Source: Epilithonimonas bovis DSM 19482
GTDB taxonomy: Bacteria; Bacteroidota; Bacteroidia; Flavobacteriales; Weeksellaceae
Length of the DNA: 59,659 bases
NCBI RefSeq assembly: GCF_900108115.1
Contig: NZ_FTPU01000020.1
Coordinates: 1 to 59,659 of the forward strand
Reading direction: 5' to 3'
In this document: piece after piece, positions 7,943-59,659 of the stretch
How positions within the stretch are numbered: the first letter of the stretch is position 1
Layout: each line of letters starts with the position of its first letter
The notes under the pieces: model-generated
Seen by the model: the letters and a program-made list of their open reading frames with translations, nothing else
What the model was told of the DNA's origin: nothing
Databases searched by the model: none
Program-made: the position numbers and the translations under genes

Positions 7943-8773
7943 ATGCTGGAACCTAACATCATCAAAGATGAAGAGATAGAACAACTCATCAGAGATATCT
8001 ATGAGCTCTATGGCTATGATTTTTCTTTGTACAGCCGTGCGTCTTTCAAAAGAAGGATCAACAGGATCTGTATGATAGACCGGTTTACAAGTTTTGCAGA
8101 ATTACGCTACAAGATTATTAATGAACCGGATTATCTCAAGCATTTTTTAGAAGAAATCACAGTGAATGTTACAGAGATGTTTCGGGATCCTTCATTTTTC
8201 AAATGCCTGAGAGATGATATATTGCCGCAGTTGGGTACTTACCCGCTAATAAGGGTTTGGATTGCAGGCTGCTCTACCGGAGAAGAAGCTTACTCTGTGG
8301 CAATATTACTCAAAGAAGCTAATCTTTATCACAAGTCATTAATCTATGCCACAGATATCAATCCTGCAGTCCTGGAAACAGCCAGGGCAGGCGTTTTCCC
8401 TTTACAGCAGATGAAGTTATATTCGGAGAATTACAGGCTTTCCGGTGGGCGGCATGATTTCTCTGACTATTACACGGCCAATTATGACAGTGCCCGGCTG
8501 GACAAAAGCCTTAGGGAAAAAATGATTTTGTCCACCCACAATTTGGTCTCGGACAGTTCCTTTAATAGTTTTCAGCTGATTATTTGCCGCAATGTATTGA
8601 TCTATTTTGATAAAGAACTTCAGGATCGGGTTTTTAATCTTTTTGATAACAGTTTAGAGAATTTGGGTTATCTTGCATTGGGTTCCAAAGAGACACTTCG
8701 GTTTTCAGGGCTGGAAAGATTTTACCAGCGCATAGACGATCAGAAGATCTGGAAAAAAGTAATCTCAAATTAA
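7943..8773 (+). CDS. CheR-type protein-glutamate methyltransferase
   Basis: A 276-residue CheR-family S-adenosylmethionine-dependent methyltransferase. The N-terminal helical domain (about 1-70) precedes the family motif NVTEMFRDPSFF (75-86) and the SAM-binding loop GCSTGEEAYS (109-118). A later motif, LIICRNVLIYF, is also typical of CheR. The ATG directly abuts the stop of the upstream receiver gene, so translation is probably coupled. No flagellar or chemoreceptor gene is nearby, and flavobacteria usually lack flagella. The target is therefore more likely a kinase or receptor in this operon than a classical MCP. Confidence 0.9.
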   Translation: MLEPNIIKDEEIEQLIRDIYELYGYDFSLYSRASFKRRINRICMIDRFTSFAELRYKIINEPDYLKHFLEEITVNVTEMFRDPSFFKCLRDDILPQLGTYPLIRVWIAGCSTGEEAYSVAILLKEANLYHKSLIYATDINPAVLETARAGVFPLQQMKLYSENYRLSGGRHDFSDYYTANYDSARLDKSLREKMILSTHNLVSDSSFNSFQLIICRNVLIYFDKELQDRVFNLFDNSLENLGYLALGSKETLRFSGLERFYQRIDDQKIWKKVISN

Positions 8774-12683: not shown

Positions 12684-14519
12684 ATGAAGAAGATTTTTTT
12701 TCCGGTGCTATTGGCGTTTGCTTCGCAGTCGTTGTTTTCACAATATCTCATTGTGGGCAAAGACAGCATCTCTGCAAAAGATTATATCAAAGAAAACAAA
12801 TACGGCCTTGAAAAAGCAGGCCCAGATAAAGCCGTCAGTTCTACGGTAGAATTTCTGCTTTTGCAGCAGCTAGCCAAAGAGAAAAAAGCTGATACGCTTA
12901 ATTTCTATGTCAATGCTGTCAATCAGAGATTATCAGAATTAAGGGATAAAAAATTCTATCCTAAGAGTATTGTTGATCCTCTTTTACAAGACTTTGTCAA
13001 CTCCAGCAAGACAGAACAGCAAGTCCTTCTTTTTATCAAGCAAAAAAAATCAGATGATAAAACTGATTACAAAGCGCTTTACAACCAGGTAAAAACCGGT
13101 AAACTAGGTATGCAGGATGTTATCACCAAAAATACCACGGCCGAAGCTGCCAAAGCGTTCTACATAAAGCCTGGGATGCTGGATTATGAGCTGTATCAGC
13201 TAATCAAAAATACGGCGGTTAATTCCTTTACACCTTTGATTGACAGGCAAAATATAGTAGCCTTTGCACAAGTCGTCAATACAAGGCCTAGCTTGGGTTA
13301 TATGCTTTTTGGCGTGCTGAGCATTCCTAAAGATGCTAATTATGAGACGACTAAAGATAAAATCTATAAAGAACTGGCGGCGGGGAAAAAGTTTCAGGCA
13401 GTTGTAAAAGAGTTTGCGACTACCGATGAAGCCAAAAACTCCGGCGGTGCTGTGATGGGCTCACCTATATTGCCGGATGAGGTTTATAATGCACTGAAAG
13501 GGCAGAAAAAAGATTTTTATACCAAGGAGCCGCTCTTGTTTGGCGACAACTATTTTATTTTCAATATTTATAATATAGAACCCTATACGCTTACGGATGA
13601 AAACCGGACATTTTTTCAGAAAGAGATGCTCTCGTCAAGCTATGGTGAGGAGGTAACTGCTAAAATGGTAGACTATCTAAAGTCTCAAAATAAATATTCT
13701 GAAACCAAAGAATTTGCTGAAATCAAAAAATCTTATCAGGCCTATCTCAATCCAAAAGATCCTAAAGCGGTATTGTTTACGTACGGTAAAAATAGTGTTA
13801 CCTATGAGGATTTGAAAAAATCCTTGGATGCACAGTATAAAAACCTAGAGCAAATGCCAACTTCGCAATGGTCAGAATTGGTAAGCTACCAGGCCAACCA
13901 GTATATAATGGGCAATTATGCTAAAAGCTTTGATCAGCTTCCGGATGTGAAACCGGAGATGGATGAGCTTAAGAAAAATCTCCTGTCAGAATATATCTTC
14001 TCAGAATATCTTAAAACTGAGGTCAAAAATAACCCACAACTTTACAAGGAATATTATGACGCGAATAAATCCAAATTTGTCTGGGAAAAACGAGCCGAAT
14101 CCAGAGCTGCAATTATCTCAGATCCTACATTGGTAAAAGATGTTGAGAAGCAGGTGAAGGATCCTAAAAAATGGGCAGAACTTAAAGAATTGTACAAAAA
14201 CCGGGTGAACAGTAAGAATCAGGTTTTGGTCCATTTCGAAGAAGGGAAAATCACAGAGAGCGCAGATATTTTTAAAAAGTATAATGTCCCCTTCAAAAAA
14301 GGAACTTTTTTAACCAAGATTGGGGAAAGAGATGTGGCTATTGCTATTGATGATATCCTGCCGGAACAGCAGATGACACTAGCAGAAGCAGAACCCGAAA
14401 TGACCGATGCTGTGACAGAGAAAGTCCTTCAAAAAACCATATCTGCTCAGCGCGCCAAGACCAAGGTAGAGGTTCAACCAGCCTTTATGGCAGAACTTAA
14501 TAAAAATTTTAAGAAATAA
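12684..14519 (+). CDS. periplasmic parvulin-type peptidyl-prolyl isomerase/foldase
   Basis: A 611-residue exported protein with an N-terminal signal peptide (about 1-19, ending LFSQ). The central segment (about residues 200-300, GYMLFGVLSIPKDANYE...FATTDEAKNSGGAVMGSPILPDEVY) has the parvulin/rotamase layout seen in SurA and PpiD. The rest is Lys-rich and helical. Proteins of this kind assist folding of secreted and outer-membrane proteins. It sits directly before a second, more typical SurA-like gene. Unlike PpiD it has no N-terminal transmembrane anchor. Whether its rotamase fold is catalytically active cannot be judged. Confidence 0.75.
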   Translation: MKKIFFPVLLAFASQSLFSQYLIVGKDSISAKDYIKENKYGLEKAGPDKAVSSTVEFLLLQQLAKEKKADTLNFYVNAVNQRLSELRDKKFYPKSIVDPLLQDFVNSSKTEQQVLLFIKQKKSDDKTDYKALYNQVKTGKLGMQDVITKNTTAEAAKAFYIKPGMLDYELYQLIKNTAVNSFTPLIDRQNIVAFAQVVNTRPSLGYMLFGVLSIPKDANYETTKDKIYKELAAGKKFQAVVKEFATTDEAKNSGGAVMGSPILPDEVYNALKGQKKDFYTKEPLLFGDNYFIFNIYNIEPYTLTDENRTFFQKEMLSSSYGEEVTAKMVDYLKSQNKYSETKEFAEIKKSYQAYLNPKDPKAVLFTYGKNSVTYEDLKKSLDAQYKNLEQMPTSQWSELVSYQANQYIMGNYAKSFDQLPDVKPEMDELKKNLLSEYIFSEYLKTEVKNNPQLYKEYYDANKSKFVWEKRAESRAAIISDPTLVKDVEKQVKDPKKWAELKELYKNRVNSKNQVLVHFEEGKITESADIFKKYNVPFKKGTFLTKIGERDVAIAIDDILPEQQMTLAEAEPEMTDAVTEKVLQKTISAQRAKTKVEVQPAFMAELNKNFKK

Positions 14520-14585
14520 TTATAATTAAAAATAAAGCAAAATTGGTTGATAATATTAATTTTGCTGCTTAATAATCTAAAAATA

Positions 14586-15962
14586 ATGTCAAATTACAAG
14601 AAATATCTTTTTTTCTTATCGGTAGTTGCTGTTTTGTTCAGCACAAATTTTTCCGCACAGGTAAAAAAAGGTCAGTTGATAGATGGGATAGCTGCTGTAA
14701 TTGGTAATGAGATTGTGCTGGAGTCTGATATAGATGAGCAGGCCAATTACGCCAAACAGCAAGGTGCCAATGTGGGGGATAAGTGTGAGTTTATGGAGAG
14801 TATCCTTAATAATAAACTCCTGATCTACGAAGCCAAAAAAGATACGCTGATAGAAAACAGAACTGCAGCCATCAAGGAAATGGCCGGCAGTAAGTATAAT
14901 CAGATTCTTGGACAGTTCCCGGATGAGAAAGCCATGTTGGCTGCATATAAGTTCCGTACATCTTATGAGATGAAGTCGGCTATCGAAAAGATCGATACAG
15001 ATAACTACTACGGTCAGCAAAAATACGCCAGGATTACAGAGAAGGCAGATGTTACACCGAATGAGGTAACTGATTTTTATAACCAGTACAAGTATCAGCT
15101 TCCGAACGTGAAAGACGAAGTTGTGCTGTCTAAGATCAGCATGTACCCGAAGCTTTCTGATGCTCACAAAAAAGAAATTATTGCCAAACTGAACAAGATC
15201 AAAGAGGATATAAAAGGCGGGCAAAGCTTTGAGAATCTTGCCAGGATCTATTCCGAAGATGAAGGTTCTGCAGCAGTAGGCGGGCTTTATAAGAATATCA
15301 ACCTGGGACAGATGGTAAAACCTTTTGAGGCTGCGGCACTTAATCTTCAGGAAAACGAAATCTCCGATCCTGTAGAATCTGAGTTTGGCTATCACCTCAT
15401 CCAGCTTGTGAAGAGGAACGGGAAAAAGTATGATGCAAGGCATATTCTCATTAAAAATACGCCTAACGCAGATGAAATTGCCTCTACCAAAAAAGAATTG
15501 GACAGCATCCGAACGTTGGTACTGGAGAAGAAAATGAGTTTCAAAGATGCTGCATACAAGTTCTCGGATGATAAGAGCAACAAGTACAGTGGTGGTATTA
15601 TGACCAACCCTCAGGATGGTTCTGATAAACTTGAAAAACTTAGCCTGGATCCTACCATCTCTTATCAGATTGCCGGCCTCAAAAAAGATGATATCACAGA
15701 ACCTTTTCAGCAGGAAGACCAGCAGAAGAGAATAATGCTCAGCATTGTACAGGTGAATGATATTATTGATGCCCACCAGCTGGAACTGGCCACGGATTAC
15801 GAAAGGATAAAAGACCTGGCACTTAATAAGAAAAAGCGTGAGATTGTTGAGAAATGGGTGAATGATAAAATCCCTTCCGTATTTATCTCCATTGATAACA
15901 AATATAAGGATTGTAAATTCCATAACAACTGGCAGAAAAACCCAGTTACCACGGCAAAATAA
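14586..15962 (+). CDS. SurA-like periplasmic chaperone/peptidyl-prolyl isomerase
   Basis: A 458-residue exported foldase. I chose ATG 14586 (MSNYKKYLFFLSVVAV), which gives a clean signal peptide ending FSAQ. An upstream TTG frame has no support. The N-terminal SurA-type domain contains GIAAVIGNEIVLESDIDEQ. Two consecutive parvulin domains follow (roughly 170-280 and 285-385), each with the FxxLAxxYSEDxGSxxxGG-like and ARHILIK-type motifs. The protein is expected to escort outer-membrane proteins through the periplasm. It is the second gene of a foldase pair and is followed by a strong terminator. Confidence 0.9.
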   Translation: MSNYKKYLFFLSVVAVLFSTNFSAQVKKGQLIDGIAAVIGNEIVLESDIDEQANYAKQQGANVGDKCEFMESILNNKLLIYEAKKDTLIENRTAAIKEMAGSKYNQILGQFPDEKAMLAAYKFRTSYEMKSAIEKIDTDNYYGQQKYARITEKADVTPNEVTDFYNQYKYQLPNVKDEVVLSKISMYPKLSDAHKKEIIAKLNKIKEDIKGGQSFENLARIYSEDEGSAAVGGLYKNINLGQMVKPFEAAALNLQENEISDPVESEFGYHLIQLVKRNGKKYDARHILIKNTPNADEIASTKKELDSIRTLVLEKKMSFKDAAYKFSDDKSNKYSGGIMTNPQDGSDKLEKLSLDPTISYQIAGLKKDDITEPFQQEDQQKRIMLSIVQVNDIIDAHQLELATDYERIKDLALNKKKREIVEKWVNDKIPSVFISIDNKYKDCKFHNNWQKNPVTTAK

Positions 15963-56726: not shown

Positions 56727-56894
56727 TTAGTGCCAGTTTTTTTGGCTTTCCATATAGTTTTGAACGACTTCACTAGGGTAATCTTTAGAAAGAAAATCAA
56801 TTATTTTGGAGCTGGTGGAAATGTAGTTTTTGTCTAAAAACATCAAAAATATATAAAAAGCAAATAGACTTATGAATATTATAAAATTTCTCAT
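56727..56894 (-). pseudogene. truncated membrane protein of the peptide locus (paralogue of 58104-58774)
   Basis: A 55-residue frame starting at ATG 56894. Its N-terminal membrane segment and following DKNYISTSSKIIDFLSKDYPSEVV match the first quarter of the 214-residue protein at 58104-58774 (EKIYISTDSKIFDFLSKNYPSDAV). Similarity ends after QKNW and a stop follows, so about 160 residues are missing. It is the last gene of the left cassette, in the same place as the full-length paralogue in the right cassette. Confidence 0.75.
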
Positions 56895-56911
56895 ATAAAT
56901 CAAATGAAAAA

Positions 56912-57142
56912 TTATCGCTTTTTAAAGAGGTTAACTAAATAAGGGAAAAATTTGTAAGTTCCAAAACCTGTATTTCTTAATTTGGGAAAGATGAAATTTA
57001 GAATACCAGGTAATAAAAACGCTAATATTAAAAAATATAAATGATTATCAGGATAATCTTTCGACTCCTTATTGTAAAATAGAAAGTAACTGAATATAAA
57101 TAATAATAAATATGGCAGTAAAATCAAAAATTTTGTTTTCAT
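56912..57142 (-). CDS. small two-TM protein, candidate immunity protein (left cassette)
   Basis: A 76-residue protein with two hydrophobic segments (about 3-22 and 34-53) and a basic tail (LVNLFKKR). No family is recognised. It follows a double-glycine peptide gene across a perfect hairpin (57168-57198), in the same place as the 59-residue two-TM protein of the right cassette. Small membrane proteins directly downstream of bacteriocin genes are commonly immunity proteins; that role is inferred from position only. Confidence 0.6.
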   Translation of the reverse strand: MKTKFLILLPYLLLFIFSYFLFYNKESKDYPDNHLYFLILAFLLPGILNFIFPKLRNTGFGTYKFFPYLVNLFKKR

Positions 57143-57167
57143 TATAAATAATTTAGAAGTTAATAAT

Positions 57168-57198
57168 ATGGGAATTTAAATCAATTTTAAATTCCCAT
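57168..57198 (-). promoter_or_regulatory. intercistronic hairpin, left cassette
   Basis: ATGGGAATTTAAA (57168-57180), a 5-nt loop and TTTAAATTCCCAT (57186-57198) form a perfect 13-bp stem. It lies between the peptide gene (ends 57215) and the small TM gene (starts 57142). There is no T run after it on the minus strand, so it may attenuate transcription or stabilise the peptide message rather than fully terminate it. Confidence 0.75.
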
Positions 57199-57214
57199 TC
57201 TATACTAATGCTTT

Positions 57215-57364
57215 CTATATACAAGTTAGAGCAATGCCTCCTAATGCTACTACGGTCGCTTCAGGACCAAAAAAGCTTGAAAAAGCCATTAGAATTATAC
57301 CGTTTGGTGAACCTACTTTTTCAGAAAAGCAACTTTTCCCTCCCTGCAAACTCTCCATCTGCAT
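57215..57364 (-). CDS. double-glycine-type peptide precursor A (bacteriocin-like)
   Basis: A 49-residue frame from ATG 57364: leader MQMESLQGG, then a core of 40 residues with one Cys near each end and a Gly/Ala/Val-rich hydrophobic C-terminus (VVALGGIALTCI). Compared with peptides B and C the leader is shorter: codons for HKALD precede the ATG in frame, aligned with MKKLDV of B. So the original start codon has probably been lost and A may be decaying or poorly translated. It is second or third in the left transcript. Confidence 0.6.
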   Translation of the reverse strand: MQMESLQGGKSCFSEKVGSPNGIILMAFSSFFGPEATVVALGGIALTCI

Positions 57365-57411
57365 ATCCAGTGCTTTATGATTAAAACACTGTTCAATGGT
57401 TGAATGTGAAA

Positions 57412-57492
57412 TTACTTTTTCTTTTTAGAATTATGTTGATATCCTAAAGCAATGATGATGATTATAATACAAATTATGTATCCGCTAGACAT
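57412..57492 (-). CDS. 26-aa hydrophobic peptide between the two precursor genes
   Basis: An ATG at 57492, four bases after the stop of peptide B, opens a 26-residue frame. It encodes a single hydrophobic stretch with six consecutive Ile and a Lys-rich C-terminal end (NSKKKK). It could be a small membrane peptide, an immunity or accessory factor, or a chance frame. The tight spacing and TM-plus-basic-tail design are the only support. Confidence 0.35.
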   Translation of the reverse strand: MSSGYIICIIIIIIALGYQHNSKKKK

Positions 57493-57496
57493 TCAA

Positions 57497-57664
57497 TTAA
57501 TCCTGATGAGAAACAGTTTCTAAACATCCCAGTGTTGTTAATCCACCTACTATAGGATTCATTCCCGAAGCAATTCCAGCAGCTAATCCAAGACAAGCAC
57601 ATCCAAAATGTACATTGATTCCTCCTTGTAGATTCTCCATTTGCAAAACATCTAATTTTTTCAT
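57497..57664 (-). CDS. double-glycine-type peptide precursor B (bacteriocin-like)
   Basis: A 55-residue precursor. The leader MKKLDVLQMENLQGG ends in Gly-Gly, the typical cleavage site of peptidase-containing ABC exporters (C39 type). The 40-residue core starts INVHFGCACLG and is rich in Gly, Ala and Leu. It has Cys at 22, 24 and 47, allowing one disulfide. The leader matches peptide C at 10 of 15 positions or more. Expected fate: export with leader removal. Antimicrobial or signalling activity is inferred from layout. Confidence 0.8.
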   Translation of the reverse strand: MKKLDVLQMENLQGGINVHFGCACLGLAAGIASGMNPIVGGLTTLGCLETVSHQD

Positions 57665-57793
57665 TTGTATAAAATTTTAATTTATTTTTTAGTTTTCCTC
57701 GTGAAAACCTTTAGCGAATTTGTGGGTAATCTTATATATTTCCTATTCCATTTTGGAATAATCGTATTTTTTAAGTTGTTTTTAAGTTTTTAA
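57665..57793 (-). promoter_or_regulatory. duplicated regulatory region upstream of peptide B
   Basis: 129 bp that closely match 59215-59343. It holds the perfect palindrome TATTCCATTTTGGAATA (57744-57760) and two direct repeats TTTTTAAGTT (57768-57777 and 57779-57788) spaced by 11 bp. On the right, a divergent XRE-type regulator gene (57839) begins 45 bp away. The palindrome is a plausible operator and the direct repeats a plausible activator site. No standard TAnnTTTG box was found on the minus strand. Confidence 0.7.
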
Positions 57794-57831
57794 TGAAAAA
57801 TAATTTTTTAATTTTGTTATTCACAAATGAA

Positions 57832-58104
57832 CTAACTAATGACCGAAAAAGATCTAGGCTTTAAAATAAAAAAGCTGCGTGAAGAAAAAAATATGTCACA
57901 GGAAGAGCTAGCTATTCTTTTTCCATTTGTTTTCCAATTGTAATAATATGAGATTGTTATTAATATCCAAAACATTGGGACTTTGAGTTCGTGAAGGTCA
58001 TTTTTCCAATTCAAACCCATAACAATTAATAGATAAGTACTTCCAATACTACAAATGATAAGACCTATAAATATTAGATTTTTTTTAGATAATTTAATTT
58101 TCAT
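57832..58104 (-). pseudogene. small two-TM protein fused to antisense XRE sequence (right cassette)
   Basis: ATG 58104 overlaps the stop of the upstream membrane gene (TGATG), implying translational coupling. The first about 62 residues contain two hydrophobic segments (about 9-31 and 43-57) and end with a basic stretch NWKTNGKR. Residues after that are encoded by the reverse strand of the truncated XRE gene and look random (IASSSCDIFF...). The native C-terminus has therefore been replaced by a deletion junction at about 57917-57926. The membrane part may still be made. Confidence 0.6.
57839..57943 (+). pseudogene. truncated XRE-type regulator, divergent to the peptide genes
   Basis: ATG 57839 opens MTEKDLGFKIKKLREEKNMSQEELA, the first helices of an XRE (Cro/CI-type) DNA-binding domain. 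After about residue 25-26 (near 57917) the frame runs into sequence belonging to the antisense membrane-protein gene and stops at 57941-57943. The second half of the HTH and any dimerisation part are missing. It was probably the local repressor. Confidence 0.75.
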
Positions 58105-58774
58105 CAGTACTGAGAATTAAGAATTAAAAAACAAACAATCCCTGTCCAGAATATTAATCCAATACCATAAGTCAACGATACTAATCCGAAAGATTTGAGA
58201 GGTTTTACTTTTTGGTCAGACAGTTCATAAATGCCCCAGGCTAGAATTCCCCAATAGAACAGCTCAAAAAGATTGACCAATTGTAACGGATAAGCCAGCC
58301 ATTTTTCTGTAGAAATATGTTCCCGAATGTTGATGAGTGAAATAGGATAGTAGGTTTGGAGATCTTCCAAAGTATAGTCTGTATTGATCCAATGAAAATT
58401 GACAAACTTATAAAATCCTGCAATCACAAAAACAAATTCTGCAATAAGTGCTAGAAAAACAAAATCCGAAAACTTTACTTTTTCTAATCCTTCCAAGTCC
58501 AAAAGCTTGATAAAATTAAGGCAAAAAGCAACCAGTAAAACTTTGATGCCGATTAATAATGGCGTAACAGCGTAAGATATCCACCACCATTTTTTTTGAC
58601 CTTGAATATAATCTTGTACGGCATCACTTGGATAATTTTTTGATAGAAAATCAAATATTTTCGAGTCTGTAGAAAATCAAATATTTTCGAGTCTGTAGAA
58701 ATGTAAATTTTTTCAATAAATGTCAAGAAAAAATAGCATAAAAAGACACTTACGAAAAATATGAAATTTTTCAT
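58104..58774 (-). pseudogene. ~214-aa membrane protein of the peptide locus, frameshifted by a 26-bp tandem duplication
   Basis: The frame starts at ATG 58774 (MKNFIFFVSVF). At 58644-58695 a 26-bp unit (tagaaaatcaaatattttcg...) occurs twice in direct succession, shifting the frame to an early stop. The rest continues in frame from about 58640 to the TGA at 58104-58106. Removing one unit gives an uninterrupted reading of 214 residues with four to five hydrophobic segments. I recall similar proteins next to bacteriocin-like genes in Chryseobacterium, but no search was run. A truncated paralogue is at 56727-56894. Confidence 0.88.
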
Positions 58775-58793
58775 ATATTATAGAGAAATTTGT

Positions 58794-58973
58794 TCAAATA
58801 TTTTGCTCTTTGCTATCTTTTTTTTTTAAATAAATTACTAGCTTAGAAATAGACCAGATAAAAATTGTTAAAGTAAGTACATCGAATAAAGGATTATTAA
58901 TTTTTTTTACAAATAAAAAATAGCTAATGCCCGATGATATTATAAGGATTAAATAAAATATTTTATTTCTCAT
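58794..58973 (-). CDS. 59-aa two-TM protein, candidate immunity protein (right cassette)
   Basis: A 59-residue frame from ATG 58973 to TGA 58794-58796. Two hydrophobic segments (about 5-22 and 30-48) and a Lys-rich tail (YLKKKDSKEQNI) suggest a small inner-membrane protein. It lies directly downstream of peptide C, separated by a perfect 17-bp hairpin. It resembles in layout, not clearly in sequence, the 76-residue protein of the left cassette. Immunity is inferred from position. Confidence 0.6.
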   Translation of the reverse strand: MRNKIFYLILIISSGISYFLFVKKINNPLFDVLTLTIFIWSISKLVIYLKKKDSKEQNI

Positions 58974-58990
58974 GATATTTTTTTTAAAAT

Positions 58991-59027
58991 TGCAATAATT
59001 TAGTTTGTTTTCAAACTAAATTATTGC
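58991..59027 (-). promoter_or_regulatory. intercistronic hairpin, right cassette
   Basis: TGCAATAATTTAGTTTG (58991-59007) and CAAACTAAATTATTGCA (59011-59027) form a perfect 17-bp stem with a 3-nt loop. It lies between peptide C (ends 59041) and the 59-aa TM gene (starts 58973), the same relative place as the hairpin at 57168-57198. It is followed by an A-rich rather than T-rich sequence. Confidence 0.8.
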
Positions 59028-59040
59028 AGAATTGATTATT

Positions 59041-59214
59041 TTAAATACAACCGTAAGAAGCTAAAGCGATAAAACAAGCTCCGGCAAAACCAGCACCAAC
59101 GCCTGTTTCTGCAAATGCTAATCCTACTCCCATACCAAAAGCTAATGCTTTACAATTTGGCTGCGCAAGTCCACCTTGCAAATTCTCCATTTGGGAAATT
59201 TCTAATTTTTTCAT
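59041..59214 (-). CDS. double-glycine-type peptide precursor C (bacteriocin-like)
   Basis: A 57-residue precursor from ATG 59214 to TAA 59041-59043. The leader MKKLEISQMENLQGG ends in Gly-Gly. The 42-residue core is LAQPNC... followed by a Gly/Ala-rich hydrophobic helix (GMGVGLAFAETGVGAGFAGA) and ...CFIALASYGCI. It has Cys at 21, 47 and 56. Its layout is that of class II bacteriocins or secreted peptide signals. The upstream 129 bp are shared with peptide B, so both are probably under one regulator. Confidence 0.82.
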   Translation of the reverse strand: MKKLEISQMENLQGGLAQPNCKALAFGMGVGLAFAETGVGAGFAGACFIALASYGCI

Positions 59215-59343
59215 TTGTATAAAATTTTAATTTGCTTCTAAGTTTTCCTCGTGAAAACCTTTAGCAAATTTGTAAGGAAAAAATTTTATTTCCTATTCCA
59301 TTTTGGAATAATTGTATTTTTTAAGTTGTTTTTAAGTTTTTAA
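59215..59343 (-). promoter_or_regulatory. duplicated regulatory region upstream of peptide C
   Basis: It nearly matches 57665-57793 base for base: the palindrome TATTCCATTTTGGAATA at 59294-59310 and the TTTTTAAGTT repeats at 59318-59327 and 59329-59338. The match stops sharply at 59343, where the IS-like sequence begins. Confidence 0.72.
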
Positions 59344-59659
59344 TCAATCGCGTCCTAAACGTTTAAAAAAAAGTCAAAAAAAAGAGGGTTGAATTAAGTA
59401 TCTCAAATTATCTTTGAGGTTGCACAACCAAACTCGTCCCTCTGATGCCAAATATAACATTGTTTTCTCAGATTATTGCAAAATTAGACCGTTCAAAATT
59501 CAATAAATTAGTTGCAAGTAAACAAACCGATAAACATACTAAAGGATTCAGCAGCTGGAATCATTTGGTTTCAATGCTTTTCTGCCAATTTGCAAAAAGC
59601 CAGTCTGTTCGGGATATAAGTAACGGGATACGTTCTGCCACCGGGAATTTAAACCATCT
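59344..59659 (+). mobile_element. left end of an IS4-type insertion sequence (incomplete at window end)
   Basis: Sequence homologous between the two cassettes ends at 59343, which marks a probable IS boundary. About 100 bp later the transposase gene starts and runs off the window. The terminal inverted repeat cannot be confirmed because the right end is not in view. The element sits on the far side of the duplicated promoter, where the divergent regulator would be in the left cassette. Confidence 0.6.
59445..59659 (+). CDS. IS4-family transposase, N-terminal part (partial)
   Basis: ATG 59445 opens an uninterrupted frame of at least 71 codons to the end of the window. The start MPNITLFSQIIAKLDRSKFN, then GFSSWNHLVSMLFCQFAKSQSVRDI and a GIRSATGNL segment, match the N-terminal domain (DUF4372-type) of Bacteroidota IS4-family transposases. 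The DDE catalytic region lies outside the window. Confidence 0.8.
   Translation, partial: MPNITLFSQIIAKLDRSKFNKLVASKQTDKHTKGFSSWNHLVSMLFCQFAKSQSVRDISNGIRSATGNLNH

Follow-up and report, generated by a model that had tools for sequence, protein, structure and literature searches.

Two decayed cassettes of a probable class II, bacteroidetocin-like bacteriocin system in Epilithonimonas bovis DSM 19482

Do the short genes crowded at one end of contig NZ_FTPU01000020.1 of Epilithonimonas bovis DSM 19482 form a working bacteriocin locus, or what is left of one? The whole contig (59,659 nt; hereafter the window) was analyzed. The genes in question, whose coding parts lie on the minus strand at the contig end, are arranged in two related cassettes, each containing precursors of peptides with a double-glycine (GG) leader, a gene for a small membrane protein and a copy of a gene for a membrane protein of about 214 amino acids (aa). 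Judged by comparison with relatives, the two cassettes are probably the decayed array of a bacteriocin (toxin/immunity) system of class II that resembles the bacteroidetocins. Export of the locus's own peptides has most likely ceased, because the machinery is broken or gone in this genome, and what is left would most likely be a non-producing remnant with two intact immunity candidates, or simply decaying. That this remnant still serves as immunity is a guess, with about even chances or less.

Cassette B comprises the following features:

59170-59347 (minus), promoter and leader region, one copy of a 178-nt direct repeat (87% identical to 57620-57797)
59294-59310, palindrome TATTCCAAAATGGAATA in the promoter
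59041-59214 (minus), precursor B, 57 aa, leader MKKLEISQMENLQGG, 42-aa core with three cysteines, family matches by profile
58991-59028 (minus), hairpin with a 17-bp perfect stem, between precursor B and the small membrane gene
58794-58973 (minus), 59-aa protein with two transmembrane (TM) segments, candidate immunity protein by position and topology
58104-58774 (minus), gene of the ~214-aa membrane protein, copy B, frameshifted (73-aa frame 58553-58774; 132-aa frame 58104-58502)
58644-58701, frame-breaking tandem duplication of 26 bp (2.2 copies, 100% matches) in copy B

Cassette A comprises:

57620-57797 (minus), promoter and leader region, the other copy of the 178-nt repeat
57744-57760, palindrome in the promoter
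57497-57664 (minus), precursor A1, 55 aa, leader MKKLDVLQMENLQGG, 40-aa core with three cysteines
57412-57492 (minus), 26-aa scrap ending in KKKK after A1, from the reading frames
57215-57364 (minus), precursor A2, 49-aa frame from an internal ATG (MQMESLQGG), profile match 4.1e-4, 40-aa core with two cysteines
57163-57203 (minus), hairpin between A2 and the 76-aa gene, arms 89% complementary, 13-bp perfect stem
56912-57142 (minus), 76-aa two-TM protein, candidate immunity protein, with a homologue in locus L047 (73-aa protein beside an A2-like precursor, 42% of 67 residues)
56727-56903 (minus), gene of the ~214-aa membrane protein, copy A, 58-aa 5' stump

A first-pass annotation, made from the window sequence, had described two paralogous cassettes, each composed of a duplicated promoter, GG-leader peptides, a perfect hairpin, a small two-TM protein and a ~214-aa membrane protein, and much of this anatomy was recovered. 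The 178-nt repeat spans both promoter and leader, GG frames are present for B, A1 and A2, and the 59- and 76-aa proteins show two hydrophobic stretches each. The leaders are nearly alike and the cores different, as had been stated: compared per 30 nt, the cassette copies are 67-97% identical up to the GG codons, right after which identity collapses to 17-43% (gapped). The hairpin is perfect in cassette B and only partly so in cassette A, and both stems exceed those of all 200 mononucleotide shuffles. What does not hold is the presence of the ~214-aa protein in each cassette, since copy A is a stump, copy B is frameshifted, and the protein is of full length in relatives only. The annotation thus had the type of system right and missed the broken state of the locus; absent from it were also the start loss of A2, a truncated XRE-family gene at 57839 (plus strand) and the 26-aa scrap after A1.

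How is the locus broken? No in-frame ATG, GTG or TTG lies upstream of MQMESLQGG in A2, so that the usual 15-residue leader is not started, and the 26-aa scrap may once have ended a small membrane gene now lost. Copy B appears to have been broken recently, because its 132-aa part still has a ratio of nonsynonymous to synonymous substitution rates (dN/dS) of ~0.06 against the congener described below; the 26-bp tandem repeat could revert through slippage. Two further damaged features lie between the cassettes:

57918-58104 (minus), small membrane open reading frame (ORF) 3' of copy B; the first ~60 aa of its 90-aa frame align weakly with genes of L036 and L040 placed directly after the ~214-aa gene
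57839-57943 (plus), truncated XRE-family helix-turn-helix gene, 34 aa, of which 23 residues align with the congener's regulator (HTH_3 0.0005, under its cut-off)

The XRE gene, cut to 34 aa, runs into the end of the small membrane ORF, which is fused to this remnant; a deletion therefore probably joined the two cassettes.

What would the intact locus look like? Comparisons covered 320 family, 395 class and 23 genus genomes (one genome per species, with the own genome counted in each tally). The locus of a congener, G017 (uncultured Chryseobacterium sp., S1C26695), is intact with all parts in order: (i) a divergent XRE gene, (ii) two GG peptides, (iii) a 50-aa protein, (iv) a 216-aa protein, whose open frame is 85% identical to the 132-aa part of copy B, (v) a thioredoxin-like (CxxC) protein (AhpC-TSA, 4.8e-9) and (vi) a C39-type ATP-binding cassette (ABC) exporter, whose best NCBIfam model, bacteriocin_ABC, scores 326 bits, under its cut-off of 524. 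Within the genus, the precursor profile matches only the own genome and G017. A helicase adjoining the window locus is present in 23/23 genus genomes; G017 has its cassette locus on contig C43 and the helicase on contig C28.

The same plan recurs across the family. The precursor type was found by profile search in 24/320 genomes and the ~214-aa protein in 23/320 (weakly and with stops in G019), and 21 genomes carry both, which bears out the first-pass expectation that homologues elsewhere would keep the GG leader and gene order. The ~214-aa protein occurs without the precursor in G019 and G246 (where the locus begins at a contig end), and the precursor without the ~214-aa protein in G125, G187 and G245 (a 15-residue match, the locus ending right after it). 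A thioredoxin-like protein and a C39-type ABC exporter follow 3' of the ~214-aa gene in all 21 non-own loci examined; the exporter is in a single frame in 19 and split across two frames in L038 and L039, and CxxC is present in each of the 21 thioredoxin-like proteins (20 by script, L055 by reading). Nine of the 13 loci with names belong to Chryseobacterium; C. lathyri CC29 and C. flavum KCTC 12877 are two examples of relatives with an intact locus. Hairpin stems of at least 10 bp occur in 7 of 20 regions, two of those seven in the window; two regions were too short for scoring.

The small frames are real genes, since 11 of 12 pairs from relatives (precursors, small proteins and one thioredoxin-like gene) have finite dS and dN/dS of 0.04-0.36, dS being saturated in the twelfth. 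Window genes also have counterparts: precursor A1 shares 70% identity across 47 aligned residues with the precursor of L051 (a Cruoricaptor ignavus metagenome-assembled genome, contig shared with L064), with dN/dS ~0.19, and the 76-aa gene has dN/dS ~0.28 against its homologue in L047 (Chryseobacterium limigenitum, contig shared with L063).

Which protein would confer immunity? The first-pass annotation had included the ~214-aa protein among the candidates, and this assignment was rejected: the protein stays with the thioredoxin-like protein and the exporter in 21/21 relatives while the cassettes vary, and for that reason looks like part of the export or maturation machinery. The annotation thus probably picked the wrong candidate, and the small two-TM proteins appear to be the better ones. 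Its more general proposal, class II cassettes with candidate immunity genes, is supported by the gene order alongside a C39-type exporter in relatives and by the covariation of precursors and small proteins, and fails in that the window cassettes are not intact.

This covariation was assessed in a hand-compiled table of 23 cassettes (precursor cores plus a nearby small ORF), which holds 38 cores and 253 cassette pairs. Rows were omitted for L039 (locus beginning at a contig end), L051 (no small ORF recognized 3' of the precursor), the lone upstream peptide of L042 and window A1 (whose partner is a scrap only), and L050a was entered with one precursor, although the precursor profile shows another close by. 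The cores are 32-52 residues long (median 38), 34 with two cysteines and four with three. Two adjacent precursors accompany one small membrane protein in 15/23 cassettes; window cassette B has one precursor and cassette A two, one of them damaged. Small proteins are homologous in 20-22 of the 253 cassette pairs, and 18 of those pairs also share homologous cores, compared with a mean of 2.5-3.1 matching pairs and a maximum of 12-13 in 20,000 shuffles. Six separate groups feed the signal. The small two-TM proteins could instead be accessory factors for export or peptide stability, with immunity lying elsewhere or absent as in bacteroidetocins, where no immunity gene was found in the two regions studied, according to the available part of the report (PMC6671954). 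We regard this as rather unlikely, given that the small proteins covary with the cores and not with the machinery.

The distribution of cassettes suggests swapping, because cassette type does not track machinery relatedness: L037 and L052 have a cassette in common, their ~214-aa proteins being 68% identical, and the closest relative of L037, L042 (88%), carries a different one. Arrays were found in L045, whose upstream cassette is the machinery-adjacent cassette of L049, and in L050, whose upstream cassette is that of L041, L046, L048 and L053. L052 carries a 56-aa stump of the ~214-aa gene ahead of its intact copy; this stump and that of the window diverge at the same A-rich tract (56733-56760 in the window), and among the 21 loci L052 is the only one with a stump in the upstream region. 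Recombination may thus exchange cassettes, with the conserved promoter/leader as one arm and the likewise conserved 5' end of the ~214-aa gene as the other; stumps and arrays would be left behind.

Is the locus regulated? The palindrome TATTCCAAAATGGAATA ends ~80 bases upstream of both intact window precursors (B and A1), and the same palindrome or one much like it is found 80-90 bases upstream in L010, L038 and L040, with both arms changed together in L040. XRE matches occur near 5/21 loci; L010, L038 (partial) and L040 have both the palindrome and an XRE match, and the palindrome is absent from L051 and L055 despite XRE matches there. It also matches inside a precursor in L036 and away from the promoter in L053. 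The palindrome is a plausible operator candidate. Export of GG-leader peptides by C39 transporters serves peptide pheromones too, and a regulator beside some loci could mean that the peptides are signals rather than bacteriocins; BlpC is an example of a GG-leader pheromone (PMC4739721, as far as its available text goes). Judged by cassette content, we consider this very improbable: a toxin/immunity system better fits the variety of unrelated cores, mostly accompanied by a small membrane protein that matches, as well as the paired peptides in 15/23 cassettes and the cassette arrays.

Could the peptides still leave the cell? The own-genome assembly (96 contigs, completeness 100) contains one C39 exporter above the Pfam cut-off, on contig C71 (E 1.1e-34, open frame). 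The first-pass suggestion that a C39-type exporter should exist in this genome is thus borne out in part, as this exporter is just 29% identical to the cognate type; this is the best identity in the own genome, and no cognate exporter was found there. The C71 locus (L003) encodes a separate GG peptide, MKKITLKDMKKGMSRNEMRTIKGG..., at 8545-8709, near the exporter at 12960-15152, and HlyD- and TolC-like genes adjoin. A link to own-genome contig C43 (L112; 6,052 bases) was rejected, its partial ABC frame being 36% identical and its neighbors different. That contig holds a possible peptide cluster of its own, with a 67-aa peptide carrying a VGG motif, large proteins, a 391-aa membrane-protease-like protein and the 198-aa partial ABC frame. 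The HlyD- and TolC-like genes of C71, the membrane-protease-like gene of C43, the DEAD-box helicase and a MerR-like gene were named by eye without a profile.

Export of the intact precursors (B and A1) in trans by the C71 exporter, which would make the locus a working satellite, has in its favor that open C39 frame with its own GG peptide nearby, and hydrophobic residues that, by eye, are common to the C71 and window leaders at positions -4, -7 and -12. There is also a precedent, in that ComAB, a second transporter, was able to secrete BlpC when blpA was frameshifted (PMC4739721, available text). Against it stand the 29% identity of the exporter, leaders that otherwise differ, and the ~214-aa protein, needed by analogy and broken in both window copies; we hold it improbable.

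The window locus is not alone in having lost its machinery. Orphan cassettes were found in G187 (a precursor and a 59-aa small protein, then the last 150 residues of an exporter) and in G125 (a precursor, then a shorter exporter scrap, with no small gene recognized beside the precursor), and no ~214-aa protein was found in either genome in the family-genome search. From these sequences, machinery loss has evidently occurred more than once in the family (window, G187 and G125). It is possible, if on the unlikely side, that the window locus is pure debris, with no gene expressed or under selection and its intact frames merely young. The window carries several separate lesions, the break in copy B is recent enough (dN/dS ~0.06 in the 132-aa part) that intact neighbors need no selection, and G125 lacks a recognized small gene beside its orphan precursor. 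Set against this, the window still has a pair each of precursors, small membrane genes and promoters, and G187 likewise retains a precursor and a small protein after machinery loss.

What the sequences show is anatomy, breaks, conservation and covariation; each biochemical step and the recombination route of the system described here are deduced from these. In intact relatives the cassette consists of a promoter, a single GG-type precursor or a pair of them, a hairpin in many cases, and a small membrane protein as the putative immunity factor, and is placed upstream of a fixed module of the ~214-aa multi-TM protein, a membrane-anchored thioredoxin-like protein and the C39-type ABC exporter. 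In a few loci a divergent XRE protein would repress the cassette via the palindrome. The exporter would cleave the ~15-aa leader and export the core, the thioredoxin-like protein would link the conserved cysteines in a disulfide, and maturation or export may be aided by the ~214-aa protein. The peptide or peptides would kill related bacteria, and the small protein would shield the producer.

Several points weigh against the decayed toxin/immunity array. The toxin role is predicted from sequence comparison. Immunity partners were assigned by hand or eye, as were ten non-GG cleavage points: 10 of the 38 precursors lack an exact GG leader end and have GA, GS, GE, GK, GN or HG instead. Of the 18 matching pairs, 10 come from a single cassette type; when three of the five members of this type are removed, 9 of 11-13 pairs agree (shuffle mean 1.3-1.6), a value reached in 20,000 shuffles once at the looser threshold and never at the stricter. 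In 14-18 pairs the cores are similar and small-protein similarity is undetectable, and 2-4 pairs show the reverse. Covariation fails or is silent for cassette B, whose core resembles those of L010, L036 and L054 and whose 59-aa protein resembles neither theirs nor any other, with no homologue at the threshold of the small-protein comparison across the tabulated relatives. The A2/76-aa pair is paralleled in one other genome only (L047), with a weak core alignment. The 26-bp duplication, judged from the assembly and not from reads, could be an assembly artifact. Finally, the contig stops at 59,659 within an insertion sequence, so that any genes beyond are out of view; the rest of the assembly lacks a close exporter. 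The element at this end is represented by one feature:

59445-59657 (plus), start of a DUF4372-containing frame (PF14294, 1.9e-23), which we take to be an IS4-type transposase

How far does the ~214-aa family extend? In the class, 18/395 genomes match, and of the 18 loci followed, 6 have a thioredoxin-like match and 9 a C39-exporter match, so that the family is wider than this system. Hydropathy shows six hydrophobic stretches. No sequence relative was found in the PDB, no PHROG at 0.01 and no Pfam family matching more than one of 13 members, and a plasmid search gave just one weak match, in Flammeovirga. Homologues in L103-L107, L109 and L110 have no match to the thioredoxin-like or C39 query and no recognized matching precursor in ~10 kb, so that other roles of the family are probable. 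Other peptides were seen near homologues. L097 (3628-4825) carries five consecutive GG peptides upstream of a ~214-aa homologue, a thioredoxin-like gene and a C39-type exporter. A near-identical core is found in three genomes of one family/genus (L101, 4044-4235; L102, 4088-4255; L108, 3901-4068; reverse-complement coordinates), reading CAYNIAVSASVGGLFGG...TGPSCLGWW in two and CGYHIVVSATVGGLFGG...TGPSCLGWW in the third; lying close to a ~214-aa homologue and a 450-480-aa protein resembling a C39 exporter, it is another candidate bacteriocin family. A different peptide type, with leader (K)LSLKK(L/I)...GG, is encoded on the minus strand, a few kb away from the ~214-aa gene, in L041 (-3244), L043 (-3239) and L044 (-3131, all relative to that gene).

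How flavobacteria fight with diffusible peptides seems little explored. Should the small proteins that covary with the cores be immunity factors, they offer a testable answer to the self-protection of bacteroidetocin-like producers, which is lacking in the published regions, and would be, to our knowledge, the first immunity proteins for such peptides. The cores supply many ready pairs for activity tests, and swappable cassettes beside a constant exporter, together with repeated exporter loss, would let pneumococcal cheater dynamics be tested in another phylum. Judged by title, no paper found on bacteriocins of Chryseobacterium or Bacteroidota (bacteroidetocin, class II, double-glycine, two-peptide) describes this system, nor was an account apparent in the available portions of PMC4573289 and PMC11195462. 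The first-pass remark that such loci are poorly described in flavobacteria is therefore fair within the literature searched; the architecture itself is published for bacteroidetocins (PMC6671954, in its available part).

Which known systems does the locus resemble? Among profile families, precursor A1 weakly matches both Bacteriocin_IIc (PF10439; 16.3 bits, cut-off 27.1) and the radical SAM-modified ribosomally synthesized and post-translationally modified peptide family TIGR04149 (14.9 bits, cut-off 25), below both cut-offs; precursor B matches neither, and A2 has no match to TIGR04149. Class IIb two-peptide bacteriocins have two adjacent precursors, one immunity gene and GxxxG-type motifs in both peptides, and they act only when both peptides are present. 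A comparable pairing of two precursors with one small membrane protein is found in 15/23 cassettes here, whereas every tabulated core contains cysteine, the host is Gram-negative, and GxxxG occurs in 21/38 cores only.

Bacteroidetocin regions are closer in plan. As given in the available text of Coyne et al. (2019; PMC6671954), they consist of four genes, for a five-TM protein, a cysteine-containing peptide with a 15-aa GG leader, a thiol oxidoreductase and an ABC exporter with a double-glycine peptidase domain; loss of the five-TM or thiol oxidoreductase gene attenuates activity, neither gene protects, and no immunity gene is apparent there. Their target is BamA (PMC8546649, available part). 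Compared by gene plan and description, the relatives share a 15-16-aa GG leader, a cysteine-containing core of similar size, a multi-TM protein, a thioredoxin-like protein and a C39 ABC exporter. In the window, B and A1 have 15-aa GG leaders, A2 keeps just MQMESLQGG, and the cores (B, 42 aa with three cysteines; A1, 40 with three; A2, 40 with two) fit ~35-53 residues with at least two cysteines. Unlike bacteroidetocin regions, the relatives add paired peptides and covarying small membrane proteins, their peptides precede the TM gene, their cores are Gly/Ala-rich with mostly two cysteines, and the ~214-aa protein shows six hydrophobic stretches, not five; the window has only two broken TM genes and no close exporter in its genome, and therefore lacks the set of five-TM protein, oxidoreductase and C39 exporter. 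A bacteroidetocin-type order in L111 (TM protein, four-cysteine peptide, next gene, C39) was considered and rejected, as the next gene matches a CarboxypepD_reg-like protein and not a thiol oxidoreductase. The bacteroidetocin-type architecture is thus known, and what appears new from sequence is the paired peptides and the small proteins that covary with the cores.

For the fate of the window copy, the pneumococcal "cheater" is, by analogy, the best model. In the available text of PMC4739721, the blp locus pairs peptide and immunity genes with a peptide exporter, and strains with disrupted blpA secrete nothing, yet make immunity proteins in response to a competitor's pheromone. The blp locus is Gram-positive and pheromone-controlled; the loci described here have thioredoxin-like and ~214-aa proteins and, in some, an XRE gene. 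Whether the system is a flavobacterial, Gram-negative counterpart of the pneumococcal bacteriocin-immunity region seems to us an evenly balanced question; such a counterpart would have a fixed export module into which one- or two-peptide cassettes, each with a small membrane immunity protein of its own, are swapped. Its recombination arms would be the promoter/leader that cassettes share and the 5' end of the ~214-aa gene, and its products would be arrays, gene stumps and immune non-producers such as this genome.

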